Positions 31,884 through 52,633 of a stretch of 64,000 nt of DNA are shown here, piece after piece. The DNA lies in NCBI RefSeq assembly GCF_964212655.1, contig NZ_OZ156465.1:4030001-4094000 (forward strand), written 5' to 3'. A program made the translations under genes and the position numbers. This DNA is from Candidatus Thiodiazotropha sp. LNASS1. Lineage in GTDB: Bacteria; Pseudomonadota; Gammaproteobacteria; Chromatiales; Chromatiaceae. How positions within the stretch are numbered: position 1 is the first letter of the stretch; each line of letters starts with the position of its first letter. Under the pieces are notes generated by a model. The model worked only from the letters and a program-made list of their open reading frames with translations. It ran no database searches and was not told the origin of the DNA.

Positions 31884-31926
31884 TTGTATGCTGTGCTTTT
31901 TGGCAGTGCTTGATACGAGGTATACA

Positions 31927-33384: not shown

Positions 33385-33419
33385 TCCGAGGTCTTGTCTC
33401 AATATGCTTAGTTTGTTTC

Positions 33420-34184: not shown

Positions 34185-34187
34185 ACG

Positions 34188-37378: not shown

Positions 37379-39280
37379 GTGGTGGATGCAACAACTGCCG
37401 AGGAGCTTGCTCCGAGGTTGACGCTAACCCGTGAGCACATCGTGGAGATCGTCAGCGACTCTGGTGAAGGCGCACAAAAAGCCGGCCAGACCTTTGGCAC
37501 GGTATCCGCTCGAATGGGCAATGGTGTCTGGACGGTGGAGATCATTCCCGCCGAGATCCAACCCCCAGCTCGCTCACCGGCCGGTGCCAGCGGTATTCGA
37601 ATTCGTCTGGCATCACATGCGGTTACCAATATGGGCGACGAAGCCGATATTGTGGTCGCCTTCAACGAACAGGTTCTCTATTCGCGTATTGTCAACGGCG
37701 CTTACAAGGAGGGTACCCAAGTGCTGTTGGAGGATAAATGGCGCGACGACAGCGTGCCTGAAATCCGTGAGCAGTATGCGAAGGCGGTTGCCGAGTTTCG
37801 TAGAAACGGCCTGATCGTTCACGAATTGCCGATTGAAACGGCCTGTCTGGAGATTACGCCGAATCCCCGGCGTGGTAAGAATATGTTCGTGCTGGGGATG
37901 TTGTGCCGTATCTATTCGCGGGATGTGGAAATTGCCAAAGGCGAGATCGCCACCACCTTCAAACGCAAGGGCGACAAGGTGATCGATATGAATCACCGCT
38001 TGTTCGATGCCGGTTACCGATTTGCCGCAGAGAAACTGGATCTGAGTTACCAGGTTCCAGCACAGCCGGCAGAGGACAGGGAGGGGAAGCGTTATATCGT
38101 CACCAATGGGAATACAGCATTGGGGCTCGGGGTGATGGCATCCGGTATGGAACTGGTTTCCATGTACCCGATCACGCCGGCAACCTCGGCATCCCACTAT
38201 CTGGCGGATGTCTATCATGAGGTTGGGGGCTTTGTGCATCAGGCCGAGGATGAGATAGCCGCCGCCGGTTTCGCCATTGGATCCTCGTTTGCCGGAAAGA
38301 CCGCCTGTACCATCACCTCAGGACCGGGACTGGCCCTAAAGACAGAGATGCTGGCATTGGCCGTGATGGCGGAACTCCCCCTGGTAGTGTGTGTCGTGCA
38401 GCGCGGTGGCCCATCCACCGGTCTGCCCACCAAGGTAGAGCAGGGTGATTTGCTGGCTGCGCTTTTCGGGGAACCTGGCGATGCACCCAAGGTGGTGATC
38501 GCCGCAGCCACGATTGAGGAGTGCCTGCATTTTGTGGTGATGTCGCGACGGCTTGCCGAGGCGTTCCGAACCCCGGTGATACTGCTGACAGATGCGAATC
38601 TGGCAACCGGGGTTCAACCCTACCAGAGACCGGAGCCAAGCCTGGACTGGATGGCGCCGCCCATCGATCAATCAGACTGGGATGAGCATATTCCTCCCTA
38701 CAATTGGGATTCGGAGAGTGGGCTCTCCCCTCGACCCGTACCGGGTATGCCGGGTGGCCAGTACATCCTCACCGGCCTTGCTCACACCAACCACAGCAAG
38801 GTGGCCTACGATTCCGATTCAAATCAACACGGCGCGAATATGCGCAGTCGGAAATTTGCCGCCCTGGCCAGTACCCTGAAGCCACCCGTCGTGCGCGGCG
38901 ATGATTCAGGCGATCTGCTGGTGGTTGGGTGGGGATCAACCCTTGGCGCCATTGAGGAGGCGGTGGATCGTGCGCGCGCTGACGGCCATCAAGTCTCTTC
39001 CCTGCATCTTCGCTTTATTTTACCCATGGAGCCCGGGCTGAAAGAGATCTTCAAGGGTTTTCGCAAAGTAATGACAGTGGAGATCAACTACAGCGATGAT
39101 CCCGGTTCACCGCTGATTACCGACGAGACACGCCGTTATGCCCAACTGGCCCTGCTGTTACGCGCCCATACCCTGATCGATATCGATTGCTGGTCGGTGG
39201 TATATGGACACCCGCTGCAGCCGGGGATGATCAAGAATGAACTCGTAAAAAGACTCAAAGCAATGCAAGGAGAGGGCTGA
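37379..39280 (+). CDS. korA: 2-oxoacid:ferredoxin oxidoreductase, fused gamma-alpha subunit (KorA type)
   Basis: With KorB, oxidatively decarboxylates a 2-oxoacid (most likely 2-oxoglutarate) to acyl-CoA and reduces ferredoxin, or runs in reverse to fix CO2. 633 aa. The gamma domain comes first (residues about 20-200), followed by the pyrimidine-binding alpha domain with YPITPATS at 263-270, HQAEDEIAA and TSGPGLALKTE. The start is GTG 37379 with GAGGG eight bases upstream. The fused, ferredoxin-domain-free layout matches aerobic or autotrophic KorA enzymes. Substrate choice cannot be proved from sequence. It overlaps korB by one base. Confidence 0.92.
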   Translation: MVDATTAEELAPRLTLTREHIVEIVSDSGEGAQKAGQTFGTVSARMGNGVWTVEIIPAEIQPPARSPAGASGIRIRLASHAVTNMGDEADIVVAFNEQVLYSRIVNGAYKEGTQVLLEDKWRDDSVPEIREQYAKAVAEFRRNGLIVHELPIETACLEITPNPRRGKNMFVLGMLCRIYSRDVEIAKGEIATTFKRKGDKVIDMNHRLFDAGYRFAAEKLDLSYQVPAQPAEDREGKRYIVTNGNTALGLGVMASGMELVSMYPITPATSASHYLADVYHEVGGFVHQAEDEIAAAGFAIGSSFAGKTACTITSGPGLALKTEMLALAVMAELPLVVCVVQRGGPSTGLPTKVEQGDLLAALFGEPGDAPKVVIAAATIEECLHFVVMSRRLAEAFRTPVILLTDANLATGVQPYQRPEPSLDWMAPPIDQSDWDEHIPPYNWDSESGLSPRPVPGMPGGQYILTGLAHTNHSKVAYDSDSNQHGANMRSRKFAALASTLKPPVVRGDDSGDLLVVGWGSTLGAIEEAVDRARADGHQVSSLHLRFILPMEPGLKEIFKGFRKVMTVEINYSDDPGSPLITDETRRYAQLALLLRAHTLIDIDCWSVVYGHPLQPGMIKNELVKRLKAMQGEG

Positions 39281-40233
39281 TGTTCGGATTGAAAGCTGAC
39301 TGGTCACTCGAAGTCTTTGAGCGCTATTTCACCATGGGCGACTATGCGGGCGGCGAGGCCCGATGGTGTCCCGGCTGCGGTGATCATGCGGTGCTGACAG
39401 CCGCACAAAAGGTCTTGCGTGACGAGCAGCAGCGGCCGGAGATGTCTGTATGTGTTTCCGGTATCGGCTGCTCCAGCCGTATGCCTCATTATCTCGGCAC
39501 ATTCGGTTTTCATGGCCTGCATGGGCGTGCGCTGCCCGTTGCCTGCGGCATCAAGGCCAGACGGCCTGAACTGGATGTGTGGGTGGCGACGGGCGACGGT
39601 GATTGTTTTTCTATCGGCACCGCTCATTGGATCCATGCTCTGCGCTACAACATGGATATGACTCTGATGGTGTTTGACAATGCCATCTACGGCTTGACCA
39701 AGGCCCAGACATCTCCCACCAGCCCCCATGGCTTCAAGACCAACACCCATCCTTTCGGCGCCATACTCGAGCCGCATAATCCGTTAACGGTAACGCTGGG
39801 TGTTACCAACGTCTCTTTCGTGGCACAGGTGGCCGACTGGAATCCCCCTTTACTCTACGAAACATTAAAAGCCGCATACCGACACAAAGGGACTGGGTTT
39901 GTGCGCATTATTCAGCGTTGCCCGGTGTATGCGGACAGTTTTTCAAAAGAGCTGCAGCAGAACCCGGACCGGTTCCTGCTGTTGCAGCATCAGCGGGGAA
40001 TTCCAGTGGACAAGAGTGTCAGCCGTCAATTCCCCAATCAGACGGAACACGACCCCTCGGATCTGGCCCGGGCCTTCCAGCTCGCTGCAGACACCGCGAG
40101 ACTGCCGTTGGGACTGCTTTACCATAACCCGGATGCCCAGTGTTACGAGGATCTGTCGAGTCAGGGTGTGGAGATGACGCCTGAGAAAAGGCTGGAGGGC
40201 TTCAACGCAGTGTTGGACCGAATCACTATCTGA
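39280..40233 (+). CDS. korB: 2-oxoacid:ferredoxin oxidoreductase, beta subunit (KorB type)
   Basis: TPP- and [4Fe-4S]-binding catalytic subunit, 317 aa. Cluster ligands can be read at C30 and C33 (WCPGCGDH) and in VCVSGIGCSS (C57/C63). The TPP-Mg motif is intact: GDGD at 104-107 and N133 in VFDNAIYGLTKAQTSPTS. Catalytic competence therefore looks normal, in contrast to the degenerate PFOR-like proteins downstream. The ATG overlaps the korA stop (TGATG). Confidence 0.93.
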   Translation: MFGLKADWSLEVFERYFTMGDYAGGEARWCPGCGDHAVLTAAQKVLRDEQQRPEMSVCVSGIGCSSRMPHYLGTFGFHGLHGRALPVACGIKARRPELDVWVATGDGDCFSIGTAHWIHALRYNMDMTLMVFDNAIYGLTKAQTSPTSPHGFKTNTHPFGAILEPHNPLTVTLGVTNVSFVAQVADWNPPLLYETLKAAYRHKGTGFVRIIQRCPVYADSFSKELQQNPDRFLLLQHQRGIPVDKSVSRQFPNQTEHDPSDLARAFQLAADTARLPLGLLYHNPDAQCYEDLSSQGVEMTPEKRLEGFNAVLDRITI

Positions 40234-40288
40234 TCACGAAATCGGGAAAGCTTGACGAACTCCTGATCGCAACGAGAGTTTTTCTGAA

Positions 40289-42808
40289 ATGACAACGACA
40301 CAAAAGGCCGCAGAGGAGCAATCAACCCAGTTGCCCAGCAATGAATCGGGGCGGGTGCCATCCCTGCCGACGGCAGTCAAGGATGCCCGGGCAACCCGTG
40401 AGTTGATGTTTCTTCTGCGCCATTTCCACCTGGGTGACCCTGCGGCCAAGGCGCAGTTGGAATCGATTGGCGACGACTATCTCCCGGCCTTGCTCGATCC
40501 CTATCGCGATACGTCCAGGCTACGCTATGACTACCCCCTGTTCCTTTTTCCTCCCAATACCGAAGAGACCTATCAGACAGCCGAAGAACTTGCCTGCCCC
40601 CTTGTGCAATGGCTTCAGGAGGCAGTGACCGCCAATGCACCGGAGGAGGAGAAGGCACGGATTCTGAAACACCATCTGCCCTGGCTGGAACACCATATTC
40701 GCAATCTGTTGCAGCAGCGCGAAGGACCGGTGGATGCCGGAGCGACATTGGCGGAGTCCTGCATCGCGCTACAGACGCATCTCAGTCTCAATGAACAGGA
40801 GAGAAAGAGACTGGAAGATGACCTGGACCTGTTGCTGCAGTCTGTGCCGGAGGGCGCCCAGCTGTTGGGTTATGGCCGCTATCCCTCACTCCATCTTCTG
40901 ATTCATGCGGTACGCAGTCAGTTTCTCCACATGCAACGACGTTTTCAGGAGCGAATCGATGCCTCCATACGCGGCCTGAAGGAGCTCCTCGAAGTCGAAT
41001 GGATCAAATCCGATGAGTCGATCGAACCCAAGATGGCCCGAGACAGCGTCGGCCTGGGCGGTGAACGCTTCGACCCCGAGATACTCTCCGCGGTGATGGA
41101 TCATTCCCGGGGCACCCGGTCTATTTCAGAGGAGCGGCGTGAGCGTATCGAACATGCGCTGGAGATCATGCAAGGCTGGCATCCCGACCCGGTGCTGGTC
41201 CGTTTCCTGCACATTGGCACGCTTACCGATCCCTGGCTTCAGGAGGTCGATTTCTGCCAGGAGATCACCGATCATGATCCCTGCGCCAAAGCGATGGAAA
41301 TATTCGATCGTGAGGCTGAGAAGCTGACCTCGATCTACAGTGCGGTGCGTATCGCACAGCTGGAGATCGACGCTATCTACAACCCGGAGATTCACGACCC
41401 CTGGTTCGCCAATTTCAGCTGGGAGGCCTTTTCACAAGAAGAGCTGCGAATGGTGCCCTCGGTGATTGCGTTGGGATCGGCCGATCAGGTGGCCGGCGAG
41501 GGATTGCGTACCTTTTCCCGACTGCTCAGCTCGGGGCGGCCTGTACAGATTCTGATCCGGGTGTTGGCGCATGCCGATCCCGGTGCCGGTCTCGATGGCG
41601 ATCCACTCAAGAGTTACCGGACCGAATTGAGTTATCTGGGCATCAGTCATCGCCAAGCCGTTGTCGACCAGTCTTCCGCTGCCCGGCATCAGCACCTGTT
41701 GAAGTGCTACCTGATGGCTTTGGATGCCACCCGCACCAGTCTGCATGTCATCAATACGGGCATGCGCCCACCCGGCAGACTGCTTCCGCTGAATGCCTGG
41801 TTGGTGGCCGGCGCTGCCATCGAAAGCCGGGCCCACCCCTTTTTCCGTATCAACCCGGAGGCTGGCGATTCGGCAGCTGTGCGGATGGACTTCAGCGGTA
41901 ATCCCCAGGCTGATCGGGACTGGCCTTTGCACCCGTTTCAGTACCTGGATGACAACGGCAATAGTGTCACCACTGAACTGGCATTCACCTTTGCCGATCA
42001 TGCCCTGCTGATCGAGCGTCTACGGGATCACTTCCGACTGATCCCGGCCGGTTGCGATTCAGACGGACTGTTATCGATACAGGACTATCTGGCCATGAGT
42101 CCGGAGGATGCCTATAGACGCGTGCCGTTTGTCTGGGCCATCGACGGCAACGCCATGCTGCACCGTGTGGTGATCTCAAGAGAACTCGCACTGGCTTGCC
42201 GTGACCGCCTCAACTATTGGCACACCCTGCAGGAGATGGCGGGCGTGCGCAACCGTTATGTCGATATGGCGGTGGAAAAAACCCGGGCGGAGGAACGTGA
42301 GCTAGCCAGCAATGAGCTGGTTCGCGTACAGGCTGCACATGCCGAAGAGGTGGAGCGGGTGAGAAACGAAGCTGCCGGCGAGGCGATGCAGCGACTCACG
42401 GATGTGTTGCTTGGCCTGGATGTCGAGGGGGGATTGCGTCCCGGTGACATACCCTCCGGGTCTGTCGCCATGGTCAGTGATGAAGTGATGCCTGAACAGC
42501 AGTGCGAGGAAGCCGAGGAGAGCGGGTCACCCGAAGAAGAGCAGGAGAACCTGAGTTTTGATGACCCCTGGATCGATACTCCCCTTTGCACCAGTTGCAA
42601 TGACTGCCTGCCGATCAACCCGCAGCTGTTTATCTATAACGACGAGAAGCAGGCCATGCTCGGGGATCTCGGCAATGCCACTTTTGCTCAGCTGGTGCAG
42701 GCGGCTGAACTTTGTCCGGCGAAATGCATTCATCCTGGGAAGCCCCTCAATCACGATGAGCCCGATCTGGACTCATTGATTGAACGAGCGGCGCCGTTCA
42801 ACCAATGA
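40289..42808 (+). CDS. PFOR C-terminal-like protein with a single-cluster ferredoxin tail
   Basis: 839 aa. The first 370 residues match nothing I know. From about residue 390 the sequence parallels the TPP domain of PFOR and the C-terminal part of the 1526-aa protein downstream: MVPSVIALGSADQVAGEGL(RTFSRLLSSGRP), then a shared RINPEAG...LDGNP-like segment, the CRDRLNYWHTLQEMAGV motif and a charged coiled coil. The GDG of the TPP site reads GSAD, so it is probably not catalytic. The C-terminus has C767, C770, C773 and C809 followed by Pro, the pattern of a one-[4Fe-4S] ferredoxin. It overlaps rnfB by 4 bp (ATGA). Likely role: electron transfer or scaffolding between the oxidoreductase and Rnf (inference). 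Confidence 0.7.
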   Translation: MTTTQKAAEEQSTQLPSNESGRVPSLPTAVKDARATRELMFLLRHFHLGDPAAKAQLESIGDDYLPALLDPYRDTSRLRYDYPLFLFPPNTEETYQTAEELACPLVQWLQEAVTANAPEEEKARILKHHLPWLEHHIRNLLQQREGPVDAGATLAESCIALQTHLSLNEQERKRLEDDLDLLLQSVPEGAQLLGYGRYPSLHLLIHAVRSQFLHMQRRFQERIDASIRGLKELLEVEWIKSDESIEPKMARDSVGLGGERFDPEILSAVMDHSRGTRSISEERRERIEHALEIMQGWHPDPVLVRFLHIGTLTDPWLQEVDFCQEITDHDPCAKAMEIFDREAEKLTSIYSAVRIAQLEIDAIYNPEIHDPWFANFSWEAFSQEELRMVPSVIALGSADQVAGEGLRTFSRLLSSGRPVQILIRVLAHADPGAGLDGDPLKSYRTELSYLGISHRQAVVDQSSAARHQHLLKCYLMALDATRTSLHVINTGMRPPGRLLPLNAWLVAGAAIESRAHPFFRINPEAGDSAAVRMDFSGNPQADRDWPLHPFQYLDDNGNSVTTELAFTFADHALLIERLRDHFRLIPAGCDSDGLLSIQDYLAMSPEDAYRRVPFVWAIDGNAMLHRVVISRELALACRDRLNYWHTLQEMAGVRNRYVDMAVEKTRAEERELASNELVRVQAAHAEEVERVRNEAAGEAMQRLTDVLLGLDVEGGLRPGDIPSGSVAMVSDEVMPEQQCEEAEESGSPEEEQENLSFDDPWIDTPLCTSCNDCLPINPQLFIYNDEKQAMLGDLGNATFAQLVQAAELCPAKCIHPGKPLNHDEPDLDSLIERAAPFNQ

Positions 42809-43668
42809 ACAGCTTTGTTATCGCACCCGCCATCATGACCGGTATCGGTCTGGTTTTTGCGGTTATCCTGGCGGTGGCCTACAGATTTCTGAAAGTGCAG
42901 GAGGATCCCCGGATCGAAGAGACCGAAGATCTGCTGCCCGGTTCAAATTGCGGTGCCTGTGGGCAACCGGGCTGCCATGCTTTTGCCGAGCAGTTGGTGC
43001 AACTCACCACATCACCGAGCAAGTGCACTGTCGCAAGCCAGGAGACGATCGATGCCGTGGCTGAACTGCTGGATGTGGATCCGGGGCAGCAAGAGAAGCG
43101 GGTGGCGCGACTGCATTGTGCCGGGGGGAAAGGCCAGGCATACCAGATCGCCGAATACAGGGGATTCGAAAGCTGTCTTGCGGCATCCGTGGTTTCCGGC
43201 GGTGGCAAAGGTTGTTCCTGGGGATGTTTCGGCCTCGGTGACTGTCAGCGAGCCTGCAGCTTCAATGCGATCAATACCAATTCAAACGGGCTGCCTGTGG
43301 TCGATATCGAGCACTGTACCGCCTGTGGTGATTGTGTGGATGTCTGTCCAAGGGATCTGTTCGAGCTGGTGCCGTTGAGCCAGCATCTTTTCGTACAATG
43401 CATGGCGCCCCTTGCCGGTGATATGGCAGTGGCGCTCTGCACCACGGCGTGCGATGCCTGTGAGCGCTGTGTAGCGGATGCGGCGCCCGGTCTGATCCAC
43501 ATGAAGGATAACCTGCCGGTCGTGGACTACTCAGGGGGTGGACCGGCCCATCCTGCGGCGACCTACCGCTGTCCTACCGGTGCCATTCAATGGTTGGAAG
43601 GGGGGCAGTTTGCAAACCAGGCCCCTTCACGGATTCAGAGTGAGAACCGTTATGCCCGACCTCGTTAA
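42805..43668 (+). CDS. rnfB: RnfB, long multi-cluster type
   Basis: Electron-transfer subunit of the Rnf ion-pumping complex that receives electrons from ferredoxin. 287 aa, against about 190 in E. coli RsxB. One N-terminal membrane helix (IAPAIMTGIGLVFAVILAVAY); the RnfB four-Cys domain (SNCGACGQPGCHAF plus a later Cys in SKC); a cluster block GGGKGCSWGCFGLGDCQRACSF; a ferredoxin repeat CTACGDCVDVCP; and further Cys (CTTACDACERC). This layout resembles RnfB of acetogens, Bacteroidetes and Desulfobacterota more than that of ordinary gammaproteobacteria. It is placed ahead of the giant PFOR-like gene rather than next to rnfA. Confidence 0.92.
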   Translation: MNSFVIAPAIMTGIGLVFAVILAVAYRFLKVQEDPRIEETEDLLPGSNCGACGQPGCHAFAEQLVQLTTSPSKCTVASQETIDAVAELLDVDPGQQEKRVARLHCAGGKGQAYQIAEYRGFESCLAASVVSGGGKGCSWGCFGLGDCQRACSFNAINTNSNGLPVVDIEHCTACGDCVDVCPRDLFELVPLSQHLFVQCMAPLAGDMAVALCTTACDACERCVADAAPGLIHMKDNLPVVDYSGGGPAHPAATYRCPTGAIQWLEGGQFANQAPSRIQSENRYARPR

Positions 43669-46600
43669 TTCGGCTTTACGGTTATTGAAGCGCCTGCTTG
43701 GGACGCCCTCGCGCACCCAGGGCCCCTATGCGGGCAACAGCACATTGTTGGACGGTAATACGGCCGTATCTGTATTGGAAGCGGGAATCAGTGAAGGGGC
43801 CGGGCTGGGGGCGTCCTACCCGGCACTGACAGCTGACCTGGCCTGGCGCAGTGAACTGAATCAGCAACGGCTGAATTTCCTGGGTTCACCGGTCAGCATG
43901 CAGTCAACAGAAGGGGCGCGTGGGGCGCTGGCTGCGAGCATCGGTATGTCAATGAGCGGCATACGGGCAACCAGTTTTTTATCCGGGCCCGATCTGGCTT
44001 GCAGCAGTGACCTGTTGACCGTCGCCGCCGGCCGCCGGCTGCCGTTGGTCATACACCTCACTGCACGCAGTCTTGCCGGTCATGCACCGGCGCTGGGCAG
44101 TGGTCATGAAGCCTTTCATCTGGCAGCTGATTCCGGCTGTTTCCAGTTGATTGCAGCGAATGTCCAGGAGGCTGTGGATTTCTCCCTGATCGTGCGACGC
44201 GCAGCCGAGCAGTCACTGATGCCTGGCCTGGTCGGTATGGATGGAGAGCAGACGGCGCTGGCACTGCAGGAGGTCAGCCTGCCGCCTCCGGGCTTGGTGG
44301 AGCGCTACCTGGGACGACCGGATGATCTGATTACATCCCCGACTGCGGCACAGCAGTTGTTGCTGGGTGAGTCGCGCCAGCGGGTAACCCGTTGGCATAA
44401 TCCTGACCGGCCTGTCATGCTGGGCGGGCTTCAGGCCCCGGAGGTGTGGGGGCAGGCCAAAGCGTCGGGGCGTGTCTTCTTTGACGATGCCCTATCGGAT
44501 TGTCTCGATGACGCCTTTGTTGTTTTTTCCGAACAGACGGGTCGGCGATATCGATCACTTTCAGCTTACCGGGTTGATGACGCCAAACTGATTCTGGTGG
44601 CGCAGGGTGCTGCAATAGAGGTCCTCGAGGCAGTGGCAGACTACCTGCGTGCCAGCGACCGTTTGAAGATTGGTGTGTTGGGTGTGCGCTGTCTGCGTCC
44701 CTTCCCCGCTAAAGAGATAGCACGCTGTCTCGCAGGCGGCGCCAGTGTTTGCGTACTGGAGCGCATGGATGTCCCGCTGGCAACAGACCCGCCATTGATG
44801 AGAGAGGTGCGTGGTGCGTTTGACCATGCCGCGGAAAACCATCGGTTCGGGCTCGAAGCGCATCCGGGCTATCCATCGATAAGCGATAAACAGCGCCCCA
44901 GGTTTCTCTCAGCCATATATGGGTTGGGCGGGCTTCCCCTGCGCGGTTCGGATCTGACTTCACTATGCAGAAACCTGGATAGGATCAACCAGCAGCAGGT
45001 CTATCTGGGCATCAACTTTTCCCAAACATCCAGCGACTATCCGAAACGACAGGTCTTGTTGGACCGTTTACGCCGCAGCTATCCGGGGCTCGAGTCGATG
45101 GGACTCTACGATGAGGCCGTCTCACCCGACCTGCGGCCTGAAGGCGCCCTGACACTGGCACTGCACCGGTTGTCGGGAGCAGCCGGAGAGGGATTGATGG
45201 TGGAAACGGCCGCCTTCCTGCATCGAATCTTCGATGGTGGCGTGCGTAGCCGACCGGCGTTGTTCAGCAAATCCTGGAGCGGTGTCTGCAGCGATCGGTT
45301 CAGTTTCTGCAGTGATGAACTTAGAGATCCCGGAGACGACACCCCCGTGGATCTATCGATACTGGTGACAACCACCGGCATGCAGCGGTTGATGCCGCAC
45401 CATGGTCTGGCGAAGGGAGGAACACTGCTTGTGCAGAGCGCGCTTCCCGATGAATCGGTTTGGACGCAGCTGCCCAGGGCGGCACGCTCTCACATCAGGG
45501 AAAGCGGGATACGCCTATTTAGAGTGGCCCCGACAGAGGAATCCGAGTCCCTGCCGAATGAATATCTGTTAGGTGCTGTTTCCGCCGTATTGATCAAGAC
45601 TGAGCGGTTGACGACGACACCACGTCGGTTGCTGAGTCTGCGTGAAGAGCTGTTGGGAGAGTCAGTGGCCGATGTCGATGCCTGTTTGCAGCATTTCGAA
45701 GGGGGCATGAATCAGGTCAGGGAGATCAGCCTGAAACGTCTTCCTCTGGTTCCGGCGCGCTCGATTTCGGATGTCGATGATGAGGTGCCGGCCCTGGTTC
45801 GTCGATTGGGAAGCCTGGATGATGCCTATGACAGTCTGCCCCGGTTCTGGGACCAGGTCGGGGTATTGTATAAACAGGGCAAGAGCGGTGAACTGGCGCC
45901 TGATCCCTATCTGGCAGTGGGGGCCGTACCCCCCTGGTCAGCGGGATTTCGTGATTTGAGCAGGTTTCGCAAGCAACTGCCGCAATTCAATCCGCTGTTA
46001 TGCACCGGATGCGGCGACTGCTGGTGCGCCTGTCCCGATTCAGCCATCAAGGTCGTCTCGATTTCTCCCGCGCGCCTGATGGATGCCGCAATCCGTCACA
46101 GTGGTGTCGAGGCGCTCAGACCGGTGGCCTCGAAACTCGCTGCCGGTATTAGTTCGTTATGTCGACAGCAGGAGAAGCCCTATTCCACATTGGAAGAGAT
46201 GCTTGTCGTCAGTTATGACGGGATCAAAGAGAAACTGCCCTTTCCTCAAGACCGCAAACAAGCGATTGCGCAGGGTATTGAACAATTGCAAAGTGACATG
46301 GGCAGTCTGCAGATTGCCGTCACCAACCCGATGTTCAATGAACCCGAAACAGCGAACAGGGGGAGTGGTGAATTATTGGCGCTGGCCGTGGAGCCGGATG
46401 GTTGCAAGGGTTGCGGAATCTGTATTCAAGCCTGTGGAGAGCAAGCGCTGCAGCTCGTACCGCAGGCTACGCAATCTCTCTCCCGAGCGCGCCGGATTCA
46501 GAAGGCATGGCATGGGTTGCCCGACGGTGAGCTGAATACAATTCGCAGGCTGGCAGAGGATCCGCAAGTCGGTGTGGCGGCCGCTGCCCATCTGGCGCAC

Positions 46601-48232
46601 TGCGCAGGGCTGGCGATGGCCGGTGGTGATGGCGTCGAACCTGGATGCGGGGCGAAATTGGCGTTGCGTCTGGCCCTTGCCATTGTCGAGGCTCAGCAGA
46701 CACCGCGGTTTGAATCGTTTCTGCAACAGGTCGAGACAACCCGGGAAAAGATCACCGGATCGATCCGCAATCTATTGGCGGATGCCCTTCCTGCCGATGA
46801 CCTGGATGCACTCTCACGTGGCCTGGAAAAGAGCGGCGCGAGGCAGGCTGATATGAGCAGCCTGATCGGTGAAGCGGAGGATGCCATCACCAATCAGGTG
46901 GATGCAGCCCGATTACGCCGCCTGGTGGATCTGGCGCGTGACCTGATCGATCTCACCTGGCGGCTCAGCAGTGGACGTCAGGAAATGGGGCGCGCCAGGG
47001 TAAGCATTGTGCTTTCTCCAGGTTCAGTGGTCGGTTGGGCCGGTGGTTTTCCTCACAACCCATTCTCGACACCAGTCACACTCGATGCCACCGGTGACGG
47101 CGCACAGTTGGCCGCCGGTCTGCTGGAGGGCCAACTGCGGCAGGCAACGGAAGGCTTCGTGCTGATGCGTAAGGCGCGTGCGGAGTTGGAGCAGTCCGCG
47201 GATGCGGCGCGTCTCTGGTCCGATCTCGAGACAATGACCTGGCGTGATCTCGATGATGAAGAGAGAGCATTGTGTCCAACCCTGCTGCTGGTGGGCGACA
47301 GCGGTCAGTTAGCTGGTCACGGACTGGGTCAGCTTGTCCGGGTTTTGGGCGATGAACTGCCGATTAAAACAGTATTGCTCGCCGATCTGGATCTGGGGCT
47401 TGCAGAACGGACGGGCCTGGAGTCGCCGCTGACCTCAGTGGATGACGTGGCTATCGATTTGGCGCTGCTGTCGCTTGTTCAGCGGGGGGCATTTATTGCC
47501 CAGACCTCAATCAGTGATAGGGAGCATTTTGCAGAATGCATCCAGTCTGCCTTGGCCCACAGGGGTCCGGCGCTGGTGCACTTGCATGCCCCGAGCCCCT
47601 CACGACACGGTTTCGCGCCCGATCAGACACTGTATCGTGCCCGGACGGCAGTGATCAGCCGACTCTTTCCCCTGTTCCGATACGATCCGCAAGCGGAAGG
47701 AGTATTCGGTTCCCGGATCAGCCTGGATGGTAATCCGGCGCTTACGGAGCCGTGGGAAAAAGATGCCGGGCTGGGGGTGTATACACCTGTCGATTGGGCA
47801 CTCGGCGAGACGCGCTTCAGTGGCAATTTCTCACCGCTCAATCGTGACGAGGAAGCCGTAAGGCTTGCAGAGTATCTCGATCTGTCAGCCGGGGAGAGAG
47901 AAGAGAAGTCGGTTTACGTTGAACTGAACCGGCAGGGGGATGAGGTCCAGCGTTTCAGTATAGACAGGCGTTTGCTGGAGGTCACCGAGAAGCGGCAACG
48001 GACATGGCGCATGCTGCAGGAACTGGCGGGACTGGTGACGCCGTTTACCGCACGGGTGCGCGGGGAGGCGGAAGCAGCCGTGGCTGCAGAGCATGAAGAG
48101 GCGCTGCAGATACAGGCGGAAAAGTATGAGCAACGCATCAGTGACCTGACCAATCTACTCCAACAGGAGACCCGCAAAGCGATGCATGAGCGTCTGATGA
48201 GGCTTGCCGGGTATAGGGAACCGGTACAGTAA
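43652..48232 (+). CDS. giant PFOR-like protein with degenerate active site, in an rnf operon
   Basis: 1526 aa from ATG 43652, 17 bp inside the rnfB end; the frame is open back to 43538, but that part only shadows rnfB. The domain order is that of pyruvate:ferredoxin oxidoreductase. Pyrimidine domain at about 30-230 (LLDGNTAVSVLEAGISEG, with the usual YPITP read as YPALT); domain II at about 255-380; gamma-like domain at about 565-650; an EKR-like linker; a two-cluster ferredoxin domain (C784/787/790/794 and C918/921/924/928); an extended insert; a TPP-like domain from about 1210 with GDSG at 1215-1218 in place of GDG; and a C-terminal coiled coil. Classical PFOR has about 1170-1200 aa. The altered motifs argue against normal catalysis; a structural or electron-wire role is inferred. 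Confidence 0.82.
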   Translation: MPDLVNSALRLLKRLLGTPSRTQGPYAGNSTLLDGNTAVSVLEAGISEGAGLGASYPALTADLAWRSELNQQRLNFLGSPVSMQSTEGARGALAASIGMSMSGIRATSFLSGPDLACSSDLLTVAAGRRLPLVIHLTARSLAGHAPALGSGHEAFHLAADSGCFQLIAANVQEAVDFSLIVRRAAEQSLMPGLVGMDGEQTALALQEVSLPPPGLVERYLGRPDDLITSPTAAQQLLLGESRQRVTRWHNPDRPVMLGGLQAPEVWGQAKASGRVFFDDALSDCLDDAFVVFSEQTGRRYRSLSAYRVDDAKLILVAQGAAIEVLEAVADYLRASDRLKIGVLGVRCLRPFPAKEIARCLAGGASVCVLERMDVPLATDPPLMREVRGAFDHAAENHRFGLEAHPGYPSISDKQRPRFLSAIYGLGGLPLRGSDLTSLCRNLDRINQQQVYLGINFSQTSSDYPKRQVLLDRLRRSYPGLESMGLYDEAVSPDLRPEGALTLALHRLSGAAGEGLMVETAAFLHRIFDGGVRSRPALFSKSWSGVCSDRFSFCSDELRDPGDDTPVDLSILVTTTGMQRLMPHHGLAKGGTLLVQSALPDESVWTQLPRAARSHIRESGIRLFRVAPTEESESLPNEYLLGAVSAVLIKTERLTTTPRRLLSLREELLGESVADVDACLQHFEGGMNQVREISLKRLPLVPARSISDVDDEVPALVRRLGSLDDAYDSLPRFWDQVGVLYKQGKSGELAPDPYLAVGAVPPWSAGFRDLSRFRKQLPQFNPLLCTGCGDCWCACPDSAIKVVSISPARLMDAAIRHSGVEALRPVASKLAAGISSLCRQQEKPYSTLEEMLVVSYDGIKEKLPFPQDRKQAIAQGIEQLQSDMGSLQIAVTNPMFNEPETANRGSGELLALAVEPDGCKGCGICIQACGEQALQLVPQATQSLSRARRIQKAWHGLPDGELNTIRRLAEDPQVGVAAAAHLAHCAGLAMAGGDGVEPGCGAKLALRLALAIVEAQQTPRFESFLQQVETTREKITGSIRNLLADALPADDLDALSRGLEKSGARQADMSSLIGEAEDAITNQVDAARLRRLVDLARDLIDLTWRLSSGRQEMGRARVSIVLSPGSVVGWAGGFPHNPFSTPVTLDATGDGAQLAAGLLEGQLRQATEGFVLMRKARAELEQSADAARLWSDLETMTWRDLDDEERALCPTLLLVGDSGQLAGHGLGQLVRVLGDELPIKTVLLADLDLGLAERTGLESPLTSVDDVAIDLALLSLVQRGAFIAQTSISDREHFAECIQSALAHRGPALVHLHAPSPSRHGFAPDQTLYRARTAVISRLFPLFRYDPQAEGVFGSRISLDGNPALTEPWEKDAGLGVYTPVDWALGETRFSGNFSPLNRDEEAVRLAEYLDLSAGEREEKSVYVELNRQGDEVQRFSIDRRLLEVTEKRQRTWRMLQELAGLVTPFTARVRGEAEAAVAAEHEEALQIQAEKYEQRISDLTNLLQQETRKAMHERLMRLAGYREPVQ

Positions 48233-48239
48233 TCACGAT

Positions 48240-49580
48240 ATGCCAGCGCTCTCCACACTGTTCAAACGCAGCTTCTCACACGGTATTCACCCGCAGGAAT
48301 ACAAACACCGGACCGCCTCCCTGCATACCCAGAGAATGCCTTTTGTAGAGCGCTACATATTGCCTTTGCACCAGCACTTGGGAGCACCCGCGAAGGCGGT
48401 GGTGGAGGCAGGGCAACAGGTAGGGCGAGGTCAACTGATTGCCGAGCCTGGGGCATTCGTATCCGCCAGTCTGCACAGTCCGGTCACCGGCCGGGTCAAG
48501 GCCATTGGAAGACGGCGTTTTCCCGGCGGACGATATGAACAGGCCATCGAGATCGAAGCCGATCTGTATGCCACCCAGCGCCTCGATGTTGAGCAGCCGC
48601 CCGACTGGCGGGGACTGTCGCTGGAGGATTTAGTCTCCGTTATTCAACGGACGGGCATTGTGGGTCTGGGAGGGGCTTCGCTTCCCGCGCATGTCAAATA
48701 CTCTTTGCGTGAAGGTGTGAAGATCAAACACCTGATTGCCAATGGCGCCGAGTGTGAACCTTATCTGACCAACGATCATAGAATCATGGTGGAGCGTCCT
48801 GAGGCGTTACTGCGGGGCGTCGAGATTCTGCACAACCTGTTGGGGGCCGAGGAGTCCATTCTCGGGATCGAACTCAACAAGCCGGACGCCATCGCGGCCC
48901 TGGATAGGCGTATCCCCTCCGACAAGCCGTTTCGTGTAGCTCCCCTGAGGGTCAAATACCCACAGGGGGATTCCAAAATGATGATCAAATCCCTGCTGAA
49001 TGTAGAGATACCCAAGGGACTGCATGCGGCGGACATGGGTATCATCATGAACAATGTCAGCACCCTTGTCGCTATCGCTGACTATTTCGAGTCCGGCATG
49101 CCCTATATCGACCGTATGGTGACGGTATCAGGGCCCGGTATTGAATATCCCGCCAACCTGATCGTCCCACTGGGCACCCCCGTCCGGGAGGTGCTTCGAT
49201 TCTGCGGCGGGCTCAAGGAGGATACCAAAGAGGTGCTCATGGGGGGACCCATGATGGGTACTCCCATTGCCAGTCTGGATGCGCCGATCATCAAATCCAG
49301 CTCCGGAATACTGGCCTTTACCGCGGAACAGACAGCTCGTCCGAAGGAGTATCCCTGCATACGCTGTGGCAGGTGTGTGGAGGCATGCCCCTATTTTCTC
49401 AATCCGTCCAAACTGGCCCGTCTTGCCAGAGCGCGTCAGTTCGATCAGATCAAACAGGCCAATGTCACCGAGTGTGTGGAGTGTGGCTCCTGCACCTACT
49501 CCTGCCCCTCGGGTATACCCATCGTGCAACTGATACGCAGCGCTAAAAGCGAGTTGCGCGGAAAGCGGGGCAGGCACTGA
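48240..49580 (+). CDS. rnfC: RnfC
   Basis: NAD- and FMN-linked peripheral subunit of Rnf. 446 aa from ATG 48240; the open frame to TTG 48204 overlaps the previous gene. GVKIKHLIANGAECEPYLTND and the SLBB-type middle domain lead to two [4Fe-4S] motifs, CIRCGRCVEACPYF and CVECGSCTYSCPSG. There is no long Ala/Lys-rich tail as in E. coli RsxC, so it is the short form found in anaerobes. The gene starts 7 bp after the PFOR-like stop. Confidence 0.95.
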   Translation: MPALSTLFKRSFSHGIHPQEYKHRTASLHTQRMPFVERYILPLHQHLGAPAKAVVEAGQQVGRGQLIAEPGAFVSASLHSPVTGRVKAIGRRRFPGGRYEQAIEIEADLYATQRLDVEQPPDWRGLSLEDLVSVIQRTGIVGLGGASLPAHVKYSLREGVKIKHLIANGAECEPYLTNDHRIMVERPEALLRGVEILHNLLGAEESILGIELNKPDAIAALDRRIPSDKPFRVAPLRVKYPQGDSKMMIKSLLNVEIPKGLHAADMGIIMNNVSTLVAIADYFESGMPYIDRMVTVSGPGIEYPANLIVPLGTPVREVLRFCGGLKEDTKEVLMGGPMMGTPIASLDAPIIKSSSGILAFTAEQTARPKEYPCIRCGRCVEACPYFLNPSKLARLARARQFDQIKQANVTECVECGSCTYSCPSGIPIVQLIRSAKSELRGKRGRH

Positions 49581-50587
49581 TGAACGACAAGGATCCGAGA
49601 TTACTGGTGCAGCCATCCCCCCTGTTGAAACAGGAGATGACAACCGCTCAGACCATGAAGGATCTGCTGTATGCGTTGTTGCCAGCCACTCTGGCTGGAA
49701 TTTGGCTGTTCGGTCTGGGTGCGCTTCTGGTTATTGTGGCGAGTGTCCTGGGGGCGGTGCTTACAGAATGGCTCTTCTCCCCGGGAGACCAGCGATGGCA
49801 GCGACTGCTGGATGGCAGCGGCGTGCTGACGGGTCTGTTGCTGGGCCTGACCCTGCCCCCCGCGTTACCGCTGTGGATGGCTTTTCTCGGTGGGGTAGTC
49901 TCCATTGGTATAGGCAAGGTGATCTGGGGTGGACTGGGACACAATCTGTTCAATCCGGCCCTGGTCGGGCGGGCCTTTCTGCTTGCGACCTTCCCGAATG
50001 CCATGACGACCTGGAGTGTCCAGGCAAGTGGAGATGGCTTTCTGTTGTGGTATCCCTCCAACTTTGCACTGCCATTCATGCAACCCCACTACGATGCGGT
50101 ATCCGCAGCCACACCCCTGGGATTGATGAAATTCGAGCAGCAGCCGACCCCGCTGGTCGATTTGGCATTGGGTAATAGCGCAGGCTGTATCGGCGAGACC
50201 AGTGGGGTGTTGTTGCTGGCGGGAGGGATCTATCTGCTGTTGCGTCGAGATATCGACTGGCGTATCCCGGTGGGTATCATGCTTTCGGCTGCACTCTTTT
50301 CGGGTGTGCTTTACGCCATCGATACAGCTCGGTATCCGGATCCTTTATTCGCCCTGTTATCCGGGGGATTGTTGCTGGCGGCTTTCTATATGGCGACGGA
50401 CCCGGTTACCTCCCCCCTGACACCGCGCGGCGCCTGGATCTTCGCCATAGGTATCGGACTGCTGGTTGTACTGATCCGGCTTTTCGGCGGCTTTCCCGAG
50501 GGGGTTATGTACGCCATCTTGTTGATGAATGCGGCCACGCCTCTGATCGACCGCTACACTCAGCCCCGCGTGTTCGGCAAGGAGTGA
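49580..50587 (+). CDS. rnfD: RnfD
   Basis: Membrane subunit with covalently bound FMN. 335 aa with many hydrophobic helices. The flavinylation site reads YDAVSAATPL with Thr 178, a slight variant of the S/TGAT motif. GGLGHNLFNPALVGRAFLL and the MATDPVTSPLTPRG block are typical of NqrB/RnfD. The start overlaps the rnfC stop by one base. Confidence 0.95.
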   Translation: MNDKDPRLLVQPSPLLKQEMTTAQTMKDLLYALLPATLAGIWLFGLGALLVIVASVLGAVLTEWLFSPGDQRWQRLLDGSGVLTGLLLGLTLPPALPLWMAFLGGVVSIGIGKVIWGGLGHNLFNPALVGRAFLLATFPNAMTTWSVQASGDGFLLWYPSNFALPFMQPHYDAVSAATPLGLMKFEQQPTPLVDLALGNSAGCIGETSGVLLLAGGIYLLLRRDIDWRIPVGIMLSAALFSGVLYAIDTARYPDPLFALLSGGLLLAAFYMATDPVTSPLTPRGAWIFAIGIGLLVVLIRLFGGFPEGVMYAILLMNAATPLIDRYTQPRVFGKE

Positions 50588-50594
50588 CATTCAG

Positions 50595-51221
50595 TTGAAT
50601 CAGCAGAGCCGACAACAGATGAAGGTCAGCGAACCCGGATCCAACCGTTTGGTGGCGACACTTGGCTTTGCGGGACTGCTATCCGGCCTGATCATCGTCT
50701 CCGTATTTGAAGCCACCCTGCCCACTATTACCGCCTATAAAGCGAAAGTTCTGCAGGAGGCGGTATTCAAAGTGTTGCCCGGCTCCACGCAACTGCAGCG
50801 ATTGGTCTACCGGGATGGTCGATTGACGCCGGTGGAAGAGGTCGGGAAGGGTGAGGAATTCGTCTTCGGCGGCCAAGATGCGCAGGGTGTGCTGGTGGGG
50901 TATGCCATTCCCGGTTCAGGTCCCGGTTTCCAGGACACCATTCGATTGCTCTATGGCTATCAGCCCAAGCAGCGCAGGGTGGTTGGCATGGAGATACTCG
51001 AGAGCCGGGAAACGCCGGGTCTGGGTGACAAGATCTACAAAGATGCCGAGTTCGTTTCGAATTTCGATGCCTTATCCGTCGAACCGGAAATAGTGACCGT
51101 GAAGCGAGGCGCTAAAGCAGCGCCGAACGAGGTTGATGCCATCACCGGTGCGACTATCTCCTCCAAGGCGGTGGTGCGGATTATCAACCAGACGAACCAA
51201 CAGTGGTTACAGCGTTTCTAA
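50595..51221 (+). CDS. rnfG: RnfG
   Basis: Periplasmic-facing flavoprotein subunit. 208 aa: one N-terminal membrane helix (LVATLGFAGLLSGLIIVSVFEATLP) and an FMN-binding domain with LESRETPGLGDKI. The covalent-FMN motif is DAITGATISSKAVV, with Thr 187. TTG 50595 has GGAG ten bases upstream; an in-frame ATG at 50619 is the alternative. No ApbE flavin transferase gene is in the window. Confidence 0.95.
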   Translation: MNQQSRQQMKVSEPGSNRLVATLGFAGLLSGLIIVSVFEATLPTITAYKAKVLQEAVFKVLPGSTQLQRLVYRDGRLTPVEEVGKGEEFVFGGQDAQGVLVGYAIPGSGPGFQDTIRLLYGYQPKQRRVVGMEILESRETPGLGDKIYKDAEFVSNFDALSVEPEIVTVKRGAKAAPNEVDAITGATISSKAVVRIINQTNQQWLQRF

Positions 51222-51234
51222 CAGGGTGAAGAGC

Positions 51235-51885
51235 ATGCCTGAGAAAAAACAAGACGCTTATCAGGAGTTCATCAAGGGGCTTTGGCGCGACAACCCGGTT
51301 TTTGTTCAAGTGCTGGGCATGTGTCCCATGCTTGCAGTCACCAACTCTGCGATGAATGCACTGGTTATGGGAGGGGCGACTTTTTTTGTTCTGGTGGCCT
51401 CGAGTTTTTTCGTTTCATCATTGAAAAACTGGATACCCAAACAGGTACGTATCTCCACGTATATCATTATCATCGCCACTTTTGTCACCGTCACCGACTT
51501 TACCCTTGAGGCGCTGATGCCAAAGGTCCACAAAGAGCTGGGGGCCTTCATACCCTTGATCGTAGCCAACTGCATGATCCTGGGACGGCAGGAGGCCTTT
51601 GCTGCTCGCAACTCGGTGCGTTTCGCCGTGGTGGATGCGCTGGGTATGGCCAGTGGTTTCCTGTTCGCCCTGTTCTCACTGGGTGCGGTTCGTGAGTTAC
51701 TGGGAGAGGGAGCGCTGTTCGGATTCAAACTCTTCAGTGAGAACTTCGAACCCTGGGTGATCATGATCCTGCCGCCCGGCGGTTTCATCACCTTGGGCCT
51801 TTTATTGCTCTTTTTCAACTGGCTGAAAGAGCGTAAGGACAGACTGGCGCAACAACTGGATCAGATGGAGATTGAAGCACCATGA
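51235..51885 (+). CDS. rnfE: RnfE
   Basis: Integral membrane subunit of the NqrD/RnfE family, about six helices, 216 aa. I start it at ATG 51235 (MPEKKQDAYQEFIKGLWRDNP). The frame runs upstream to 51133 but there only overlaps rnfG. Diagnostic parts are NPVFVQVLGMCPMLAVTNSA with the membrane Cys, PLIVANCMILGRQEAFA and the PPGGFITLGLLL end. Overlaps rnfA by four bases. Confidence 0.95.
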   Translation: MPEKKQDAYQEFIKGLWRDNPVFVQVLGMCPMLAVTNSAMNALVMGGATFFVLVASSFFVSSLKNWIPKQVRISTYIIIIATFVTVTDFTLEALMPKVHKELGAFIPLIVANCMILGRQEAFAARNSVRFAVVDALGMASGFLFALFSLGAVRELLGEGALFGFKLFSENFEPWVIMILPPGGFITLGLLLLFFNWLKERKDRLAQQLDQMEIEAP

Positions 51886-52460
51886 ACGAACTTGTGTGGA
51901 TTTTCATCAGCGCCCTGCTAATCAACAATTTTGTACTGGCCTATTTTCTCGGCTTGTGTCCTTTTTTGGGTGTATCGCAGCGATTGGAAACCGCTTTCCG
52001 ATTGGGCTTGGCCACCATATTCGTGATGCTGATTACCGCATTGTGCGCCTGGCTGCTCAATACCTATATTCTGATTTATGCACCTTATCTAAGGTTGATC
52101 AGTTTTATCGTGGTCATTGCCAGCACGGTTCAATTCATTGAGATGGTGATAAAAAAGCTGAGTCCGGCTCTGTTCAAGGCATTGGGGATATTCCTTCCCT
52201 TGATCACCACCAACTGCGCGATTCTCGGTCTGGCCATCTTCGCCACCAACAAAGGGTATGGATTCACACAGGGTATGACCTATGCTTTGGGAGCAGGGTT
52301 GGGTTTTACGCTTGCTCTGGTGCTGATGGCCGGATTGCGGGAGGAGACCGAGCTGGCTGAAGTGCCTAGACTGATTAAAGGGACTGCCATGAACCTGATT
52401 ATTGCCGGAATTCTCTCCATGGCATTCATGGGATTTGCCGGCCTGTTCAGTGCGGCATGA
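51882..52460 (+). CDS. rnfA: RnfA
   Basis: Integral membrane subunit paired with RnfE; together they hold the intramembrane Fe-S site. 192 aa, about six helices. LLINNFVLAYFLGLCPFLGVS and LPLITTNCAILGLAIF supply the two conserved cysteines. The ATG overlaps the rnfE stop (ATGA). With rnfB, C, D, G and E this completes all six core Rnf subunits, in the order B-(giant)-C-D-G-E-A. Confidence 0.96.
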   Translation: MNELVWIFISALLINNFVLAYFLGLCPFLGVSQRLETAFRLGLATIFVMLITALCAWLLNTYILIYAPYLRLISFIVVIASTVQFIEMVIKKLSPALFKALGIFLPLITTNCAILGLAIFATNKGYGFTQGMTYALGAGLGFTLALVLMAGLREETELAEVPRLIKGTAMNLIIAGILSMAFMGFAGLFSAA

Positions 52461-52633
52461 CCATGTGGATACACGTGTTCGCCATATTGGGATTAGTGGC
52501 CTTGTGTGCAGGCTGGGTGGTATTTCAATTGTGGTTGAACAGGCTGGATCCTGAGAGAGTAGCGTCCTCGGACAACTGCTCAGGATGTGGTTCCTGCGCT
52601 CATTCCACGTCGAGCGAGACAGAGCGGGACTAA
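52457..52633 (+). CDS. 58-aa membrane peptide with a CxxCxxC motif, last gene of the rnf operon
   Basis: The ATG at 52457 overlaps the rnfA stop by four bases (ATGA), the same coupling used between several genes in this operon. The product has one membrane helix (WIHVFAILGLVALCAGWVVF), a short linker, then NCSGCGSC (Cys 41, 44, 47) and a charged tail. This recalls small maturation factors such as NqrM of the Na+-NQR complex and FeoB-associated Cys-rich proteins, though I cannot claim homology. A role in delivering iron or assembling the RnfA/E metal site is a reasonable inference. Confidence 0.75.
   Translation: MTMWIHVFAILGLVALCAGWVVFQLWLNRLDPERVASSDNCSGCGSCAHSTSSETERD

Follow-up and report, generated by a model that had tools for sequence, protein, structure and literature searches.

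Gene content of the locus

We analysed a window of 64,000 nt from Candidatus Thiodiazotropha sp. LNASS1 (NCBI RefSeq GCF_964212655.1, contig NZ_OZ156465.1, forward strand, positions 4,030,001 to 4,094,000), in which 11 plus-strand genes follow one another in the order korA-korB-p839-rnfB-p1526-rnfCDGEA-p58 at 37379..52633. A first-pass annotation had described this run as korAB and rnf joined by two PFOR-like proteins, and our analysis confirmed it, with the following features (window coordinates).

37379..39280, plus strand: korA, 633 aa, GTG start; 2-oxoacid:acceptor oxidoreductase alpha subunit (TIGR03710 above cut-off; Pfam POR and POR_N)
39280..40233, plus strand: korB, 317 aa; beta subunit, TPP and one [4Fe-4S] cluster expected
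40289..42808, plus strand: p839; degenerate PFOR domains V-VI, a long helix and a C-terminal single-cluster ferredoxin domain
42572..42733, plus strand: ferredoxin tail of p839, residues 762-815 (Pfam Fer4_13, 2.2e-06; PDB 1dax, E 0.00064)
42805..43668, plus strand: rnfB, 287 aa (TIGR01944, 78.7 bits against a cut-off of 68.7)
43652..48232, plus strand: p1526; pseudo-PFOR, TPP site and proximal-cluster ligands missing
45983..46051, plus strand: first domain-V [4Fe-4S] motif of p1526, residues 778-800; four Cys in 37/37
46388..46450, plus strand: second domain-V [4Fe-4S] motif of p1526, residues 913-933; four Cys in 37/37
48240..49580, plus strand: rnfC, 446 aa (TIGR01945, 498.2 bits; scan started at 48204)
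49580..50587, plus strand: rnfD (TIGR01946 above cut-off)
50619..51221, alternative start 50595, plus strand: rnfG (TIGR01947, 89.3 bits, below the cut-off of 102; synteny)
51235..51885, plus strand: rnfE (TIGR01948 above cut-off; scan started at 51133)
51882..52460, plus strand: rnfA (TIGR01943 above cut-off)
52457..52633, plus strand: p58; hydrophobic stretch (by eye), then a Cys-rich tail

All six Rnf subunits, RnfABCDGE, are encoded in the cluster, as had been claimed; they were identified by TIGR profiles, RnfG, which scores under the curated cut-off, being assigned by its best family and its conserved gene position. Of 39 loci, 23 have the last gene, p58, downstream, 6 do not and 10 are cut. 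Its aligned homologues show a CxxC tail, and the window protein had no Pfam match at 0.01; kinship with NqrM-like maturation proteins, like a maturation role, would be a guess. Promoters and terminators were not in excess over shuffles, and no separate ferredoxin gene was seen within the gene run.

KorAB retains its catalytic motifs

The YPITP motif is present in the window KorA and in 16 of 17 aligned KorA homologues, the exception being a partial or fused reading in locus L039. The KorB motifs WCxGCGD, GDGDCFSIG and LTKxQxSPT occur in all 25 KorB sequences that passed the length filter. The earlier claim that KorAB is catalytically intact was thus borne out at the motif level, with YPITP, the TPP GDGD and the cluster CxxC all present. 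The nearest solved relative of the window KorA is the Magnetococcus OGOR (6n2n), with which KorB has the stretch GIGCSSRMP in common. An Arg occupies the position of StOFOR Lys49 in 25/25 KorB sequences and likewise in 6n2n; mutational work on StOFOR gives this position a role in substrate specificity (PMC5020499). The best reading of these sequences is that KorAB is a putative 2-oxoglutarate:acceptor oxidoreductase. Magnetococcus 6n2n and Sulfolobus StOFOR resemble it in KorA/KorB make-up and key motifs; StOFOR works with an external ferredoxin (PMC5020499), whereas in the window the candidate adapter genes follow korB.

p1526 and p839 appear to have lost the PFOR active site

Both domain-V [4Fe-4S] motifs of p1526 are conserved in 37/37 homologues. 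The proximal-cluster ligands are missing throughout (CxxC pair, ATGC Cys and fourth Cys each 0/37), and so, but for a single GDG (1/37, in L039), are the TPP/Mg motif (Asn of N.TGGQ 0/37) and YPITP (0/37). Judged by these motifs, p1526 is a PFOR-derived protein that has lost the TPP site and the proximal-cluster cysteines and retained the motifs for the two domain-V clusters. By VIA-align comparison, p839 retains the PFOR domain V-VI fold; it has none of the domain-V Cys (0/32), GDG (0/32) or TGGQ (0/32) and keeps its ferredoxin tail in 31/32 sequences, the exception carrying a frame break. p839, too, is PFOR-derived and devoid of TPP site and proximal-cluster cysteines. The view that the 839-aa and 1526-aa companions derive from PFOR is therefore supported, and we add that both have lost its active-site motifs. 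That p1526 keeps its relay-cluster cysteines in 37/37 sequences, with the catalytic ones lost, is more readily explained by electron transfer than by a structural function. Loss of the active site with retention of iron-sulfur centres in the two companions suggests that an enzyme no longer catalytic was recruited as an adapter for electrons.

p1526, p839 or both might instead still bind a cofactor or substrate and use the inherited PFOR fold for a new reaction or for sensing. The fold of p839 is kept, both families are conserved along their full length and p1526 shows conserved segments particular to it, for example PSPxRHG in 35/37; yet with GDG missing from the TPP/Mg site in 36/37 p1526 and 32/32 p839 sequences, we regard this as improbable.

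A sister operon in the same genome carries an intact PFOR

The window genome also encodes a sister operon at C1:1181-1191 kb, rnfB-PFOR-rnfCDGEA, in which the PFOR (1650 aa) retains its motifs intact and is fused to a ferredoxin. We refer to this arrangement as B-type and to the korAB/p839/p1526/rnf cluster as in the window as A-type; the window cluster falls outside the B-type definition, as it lacks an intact PFOR and contains korAB and p839. Among the 23 B-type class loci read, GGDGxxYDIG and SNTGGQ were present in all and rnf adjoined the PFOR gene in 22. A canonical Rnf (rnfABCDGE) lies at C1:2222189 of the window genome, with six subunits and no p1526 or p839 match in the stretch. Within this genome, the A-type RnfB is 28% identical to the canonical RnfB and 53% identical to the B-type RnfB, and in the Rnf tree A-type and B-type form sister clades (support 100 and 99).

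The domain V-VI tree (44 sequences, 666 sites, one outgroup) resolved p1526, p839 and the B-type PFOR as three separate clades, each with support of 100; p839 grouped with B-type at 86, on long branches. This tree gives no support to the idea that p839 and p1526 arose by a simple division of the B-type gene.

p839 accompanies KorAB and p1526 accompanies Rnf

The gene order of the cluster recurs in sulfur-oxidising and sediment Gammaproteobacteria. The korA subfamily (at least 56% identity; next-best match 43%) was found in 15 of 370 Gammaproteobacteria genomes, and p839-type matches, defined as starting at query residue 1-63 (PFOR matches start near 330), occurred in the same 15 (Fisher p 5e-27, shared ancestry ignored). 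The first-pass annotation had named homologues lying mostly away from rnf and kor as a refutation; its reading is not refuted by this check. In a phylum sample of 397 genomes, taken to look for spread beyond the class, 11 had any p839 match; other than that of the window, these were long PFOR frames or partial frames and none was of the p839 type. We also considered whether KorAB replaces 2-oxoglutarate dehydrogenase, and rejected this as a general rule, since sucA (E 1e-100 or better) was present in 9/15 A-type genomes versus 266/355 others (p 0.23).

Rearranged loci separate the two companions. In genomes G740 and G741 the p1526 locus (L008 and L028, respectively) is without adjacent korAB or p839, and korA (84 and 80%) and p839 (62 and 61%) lie together on a different contig; p839 stays with korA and p1526 with rnf, placing p839 on the KorAB side and p1526 on the Rnf side. 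Genomes G189 and G353 carry korAB and a p839-like protein with a GltD/NfnB-like gene, resembling an NADPH dehydrogenase, at most 50 nt away (TIGR01316 above cut-off); they have no p1526-type match at E 1e-10, and rnf is absent from the 15.5-19.9 kb read. On this comparative evidence, the probable partner of p839 is KorAB and that of p1526 is Rnf. Counted against the role of p839 on the KorAB side is that its occurrence with KorAB in loci without rnf comprises these two examples, none having been added in 36 genomes of the order of G189.

A candidate electron-transfer unit

On balance we favour the reading that these genes encode a unit dedicated to electron transfer, in which a pseudo-PFOR adapter of p839 and p1526 would link KorAB and the Rnf pump in either direction. 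The two descendants of a long PFOR would form the catalytically dead adapter, p839 serving the KorAB side with its built-in ferredoxin domain and p1526 the Rnf side with its two PFOR domain-V relay clusters. Electrons could pass from the KorAB TPP to the single KorB cluster, through the clusters of p839 and p1526 in either order, and on to RnfB, the membrane subunits and RnfC/NAD. We infer a physical complex, with electron transfer through the adapter and little need for free ferredoxin.

This reading draws on the co-occurrence of korA and p839, the rearranged clusters of G740 and G741, the korAB-p839 loci without p1526 in G189 and G353, the retention and loss of motifs in p1526 (n=37) and p839 (n=32), the sister operon with its intact PFOR and ferredoxin tail, the A/B Rnf sister clades and the GIGCSSRMP stretch common to KorB and the Magnetococcus OGOR. 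Counted against it are the presence of 2-oxoglutarate dehydrogenase in 9/15 A-type genomes, a p1526/p839/PFOR tree that lends no support to a simple one-gene split and the location of korAB far from rnf in some genomes, which means that tight co-translation is not required.

Operon conservation can also reflect shared regulation, with free ferredoxin carrying the electrons. The cluster would then be a metabolic operon only, KorAB and Rnf being co-regulated and p839 and p1526 having assembly or regulatory roles, as would suit the distant korAB genes and the description of Rnf as working with ferredoxin (PMC12174285). We consider this rather unlikely: we saw no separate ferredoxin gene among the cluster genes, p839 has a ferredoxin domain of its own, and p1526 has kept its relay cysteines while losing the catalytic ones.

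Direction of electron flow

Whether the dedicated unit would couple 2-oxoglutarate oxidation to an ion gradient or use a gradient to drive synthesis from succinyl-CoA and CO2 is about evenly balanced. That it works reductively, Rnf with NADH and the ion gradient driving 2-oxoglutarate synthesis in a reductive TCA branch, is a tentative proposal. We examined 19 upstream regions, of which L022 and L100 represent a single contig. In 13 of them korA follows a NuoF-like gene of the same orientation; 11 also encode a TfrA/SdhA-like flavoprotein, and 10 a 2Fe-2S/4Fe-4S protein. The families were assigned on L101 (all three) and L025 (NuoF). On thermodynamic grounds, a soluble NADH-linked enzyme of the NuoF/TfrA-SdhA-like kind should reduce fumarate. 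However, the same genes fit an oxidative arm that has succinate as its end product and fumarate as the sink, and the module is missing upstream of korA in the window and in 6/19 regions, although some may be masked by antisense ORFs. In Endoriftia under H2S limitation, korAB(3) and a 'PFOR-like' gene are reported to go down and rTCA genes to go up (PMC11636981), which argues against the reductive direction if these are the same genes.

A more far-reaching version, which we hold to be possible but doubtful, is that a single membrane-anchored machine unites KorAB and Rnf with p839 and p1526 and keeps electrons inside proteins along an evolved wire of two dead PFORs. Its NAD(P) end would be exchangeable, being either Rnf together with p1526 or a dehydrogenase of the GltD/NfnB-like type. 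Run reductively, it would give autotrophic sulfur bacteria a ferredoxin-free 2-oxoglutarate synthase powered by an ion gradient.

Relation to known systems

The first-pass annotation knew of no described system of this composition. Our search of an open-access library turned up no account of a KorAB/pseudo-PFOR/Rnf assembly; one element had nevertheless been in print since 2014, when a PFOR gene between rnfB and rnfC in rnf2 of the Solemya velum symbiont was proposed as the Rnf electron donor (PMC4287430). Like the window, rnf2 has an OFOR-family gene within an rnf operon, and we infer that this PFOR gene is B-type. In the B-type the PFOR motifs are intact and KorAB is absent, whereas the window has two PFOR-derived proteins without the active site, leaving catalysis to KorAB. 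The five-subunit OGOR/PFOR of Aquifex also includes a ferredoxin-type part, the epsilon subunit, in the enzyme complex, but its description, in the text available, mentions no Rnf link or PFOR-derived adapter (PMC10052474). In the rTCA clusters of tubeworm symbionts (KorABCD with Hdr-Flx, PntAB and Rnf), an OGOR is likewise fed by a dedicated electron complex, there with a four-subunit OGOR and with Hdr-Flx where the window has the pseudo-PFOR (PMC6315080).

If the favoured reading is true, an enzyme has lost its active site and been retained to carry electrons between an ion pump and a second enzyme, a case for which the sister operon with intact motifs in the same genome provides a comparison. 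A p1526-type 'PFOR-like' gene should then not be counted as a pyruvate oxidoreductase, and the 'KorAB' and 'PFOR-like' annotations in these Gammaproteobacteria genomes would become interpretable. The cluster would also be a defined, testable candidate for the link between a low-potential carboxylase and the membrane in sulfur-oxidising and sediment Gammaproteobacteria, including animal symbionts.

Operon organization and KorAB identity

The first-pass annotation had described a plus-strand run of eleven genes that joins korA and korB to rnf subunits and two PFOR-like companions (p839 and p1526), and this organization was confirmed in the window:

37379..52633, + strand: operon korA, korB, p839, rnfB, p1526, rnfC, rnfD, rnfG, rnfE, rnfA, p58; intergenic gaps −17 to 55 nt
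52457-52633: p58, 58-aa hydrophobic peptide with a CxxC-rich tail, 3′ of rnfA

We take p58 to resemble small Nqr maturation proteins, a candidate role. The window lies at C1:4030001-4094000 of a 4.75-Mb single-contig genome, and the closest relatives in the species collection are a Ctena orbiculata symbiont (98% identity in the best segment of the 1526-aa protein) and Ca. Thiodiazotropha endolucinida (94%), which marks the organism as Thiodiazotropha-like. Family profiles assigned KorA and KorB to the two-subunit OFOR family, with KorB under one subfamily cut-off, and the nearest solved structures are Magnetococcus OGOR and Sulfolobus OFOR. Among homologues surviving the length filter, YPITP was found in 16/17 KorA (the exception being a fused or partial second copy at locus L039), and WCxGCGD, SGIGCSSR, GDGDCFSIG and LTKxQxSPT in 25/25 KorB. 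Because the GIGCSSRMP stretch of KorB is also present in Magnetococcus OGOR, 2-oxoglutarate is favoured as the probable substrate.

Elsewhere in the window, a 254-aa protein without a Pfam match is encoded between two calcineurin-like phosphoesterase genes (31888-35270), and a 445-aa protein on the minus strand (24613-25950) has no Pfam match at 0.001.

Conservation across genomes

A species-level scan with one genome per species yielded 53 loci; counts use the 39 clear relatives (L002-L040), leaving out weak or PFOR-core-only matches (L041-L054). Nearly all 39 are gammaproteobacterial, with record names including Thiodiazotropha, Thiomargarita, Thiosymbion, Achromatium, Sedimenticola, Woeseiaceae and Chromatiales.

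Genes at the 39 clear-relative loci (yes/no/cut by contig end)
korA 28/1/10
korB 30/2/7
p839 34/2/3
rnfB 36/2/1
rnfC 32/1/6
rnfD 29/2/8
rnfG 28/2/9
rnfE 27/2/10
rnfA 27/2/10
p58 23/6/10

Among 370 genomes sampled from the class, korA matched 81 at E 1e-30, 15 of them at 56-100% identity and the next at 43%. The p839 search matched 32 genomes: 15 matches start at query residue 1-63, and the remaining 17 start near residue 330, like long PFORs. In a co-occurrence check of the kind that the first-pass annotation had proposed, the 15 p839-type genomes are the same 15 that carry high-identity korA (Fisher p 5e-27, a statistic that ignores shared ancestry). Within the family to which the window belongs, three of the genomes sampled lack both genes, so presence is patchy. 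Diverged members of the 15 are G292, G189 and G353 (p839 28-29%, KorA 56-59% identity). In G031 (L097) korA and p839 are both in several broken frames, and at L005 korB, p839 and p1526 are split likewise; either decay or sequencing error may account for these.

One locus, L039 from a Gemmatimonadetes MAG, departs from this organization. Its rnfB, one of the two scored 'no', lies 3.9 kb upstream, separated from p1526 by a restriction-modification pair, and its p1526 still has TPP-motif remnants. The contig carries a fuller korA elsewhere, besides a fused Kor-like frame.

L039:7580-9381: EcoRV-type endonuclease and D12-class methyltransferase genes, between rnfB and p1526
L039:59-1882: Kor-like fusion of beta and alpha parts (domain order TPP_enzyme_C, PFO_beta_C, POR_N), 5′ of korB

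Partners of p839 and p1526

Rearranged genomes separate the two companions. Two of them, Thiosymbion (L008, G740) and a Chromatiaceae MAG (L028, G741), have neither korAB nor p839 at the p1526 locus; in both, korA and p839 lie together on another contig, ~3.4 kb and ~1.7 kb apart, respectively. In G189 and G353, korAB (KorA 56-57%) is accompanied by a p839-like protein, of 972 aa in one genome (L115, three CxxCxxC motifs) and 759 aa in the other; there the p1526 query gave PFOR-core matches only, and the sequence read around korAB and the p839-like gene showed no rnf gene. Within 50 nt of this locus in both genomes lies a Fer4_20+Pyr_redox_2 protein above the TIGR01316 cut-off:

L115:4320-5828 and L111:7159-8673: GltD/NfnB-like NAD(P)H oxidoreductase adjoining korAB and p839-like, in genomes without p1526

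From these four genomes, p839 goes with KorAB and p1526 with Rnf, and the case for an adapter rests chiefly on this pattern. A Thiomargarita MAG (L006, G742; korA and p839 on two other short contigs) and Achromatium (L019, G743; p839 beside p1526, korA on another short contig) show only that all parts are present.

A sister PFOR-type operon

The window genome contains two further rnf sets:

Same genome: canonical rnfABCDGE
C1:1181105-1191493 (= L070:6106-16494): rnfB, p1650 (1650-aa PFOR with fused ferredoxin), rnfCDGEA

p1650 keeps YPITP, CLGCGE, ATGC, GGDG..YDIG and SNTGGQ and has the same ferredoxin tail as p839. We read 23 loci of this second (B) type in the class sample, two from one contaminated genome (G362) and one (L123) nearly identical to that of the window genome; all 23 contain GGDGxxYDIG and SNTGGQ, and an adjoining rnf gene occurs in 22/23, L120 being cut at one end with none on the other side. 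PFORs of ~1680-1720 aa with GGDG and SNTGGQ were found in other classes of the phylum, where neither a ferredoxin tail nor an rnf gene was detected in ~4-kb loci. In an RnfC+D+E+A tree (40 tips, 1187 sites, one outgroup), the window-type (100) and B-type (99) operons form sister groups, and L039 joins the B side with a support of 71. The genome paper on Solemya velum had already placed a PFOR between rnfB2 and rnfC2 and suggested that it may feed Rnf (PMC4287430).

Proposed electron path and direction

Domain V is absent from KorAB. StOFOR, likewise made of two subunits, relies on an external ferredoxin (PMC5020499), whereas in the window operon a ferredoxin domain comes with p839 and two relay clusters come with p1526. 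Electrons would pass from the KorB cluster through the p839/p1526 clusters to RnfB; the order of clusters within the adapter, its stoichiometry and any PFOR-dimer-like pairing between domain VI of p1526 and that of p839 are guesses. The dedicated KorAB/PFOR-like/Rnf machine of the first-pass annotation is partly supported and takes a sharper form. We found no description of such an assembly in searches of an open-access library; its parts are known, and their combination with pseudo-enzyme adapters is new.

Upstream of korA at 19 loci (L022 and L100 being one contig), we found NuoF-like (13/19), TfrA/SdhA-like (11/19) and 2Fe-2S/4Fe-4S (10/19) genes, counts from which antisense ORFs may hide some genes; this module is absent 5′ of korA in the window.

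L101:2281-5801: 2Fe-2S/4Fe-4S protein, TfrA/SdhA-like flavoprotein and NuoF-like protein, directly 5′ of korA

At L107:3887-6208, an aldehyde:ferredoxin oxidoreductase with a ThiS-like end lies directly 5′ of korA. OGDH occurs alongside the window-type operon in 9/15 genomes. In Endoriftia under H2S limitation, korAB(3) and a 'PFOR-like' gene decrease together (PMC11636981), which would be a hint on expression if they are the counterpart of the window locus. The upstream module resembles a soluble NADH:fumarate reductase that may be attached to the KorAB-Rnf unit; together with KorAB it would suit a reductive branch leading from fumarate to 2-oxoglutarate or, equally, an anaerobic mode with two arms and succinate as the end product.
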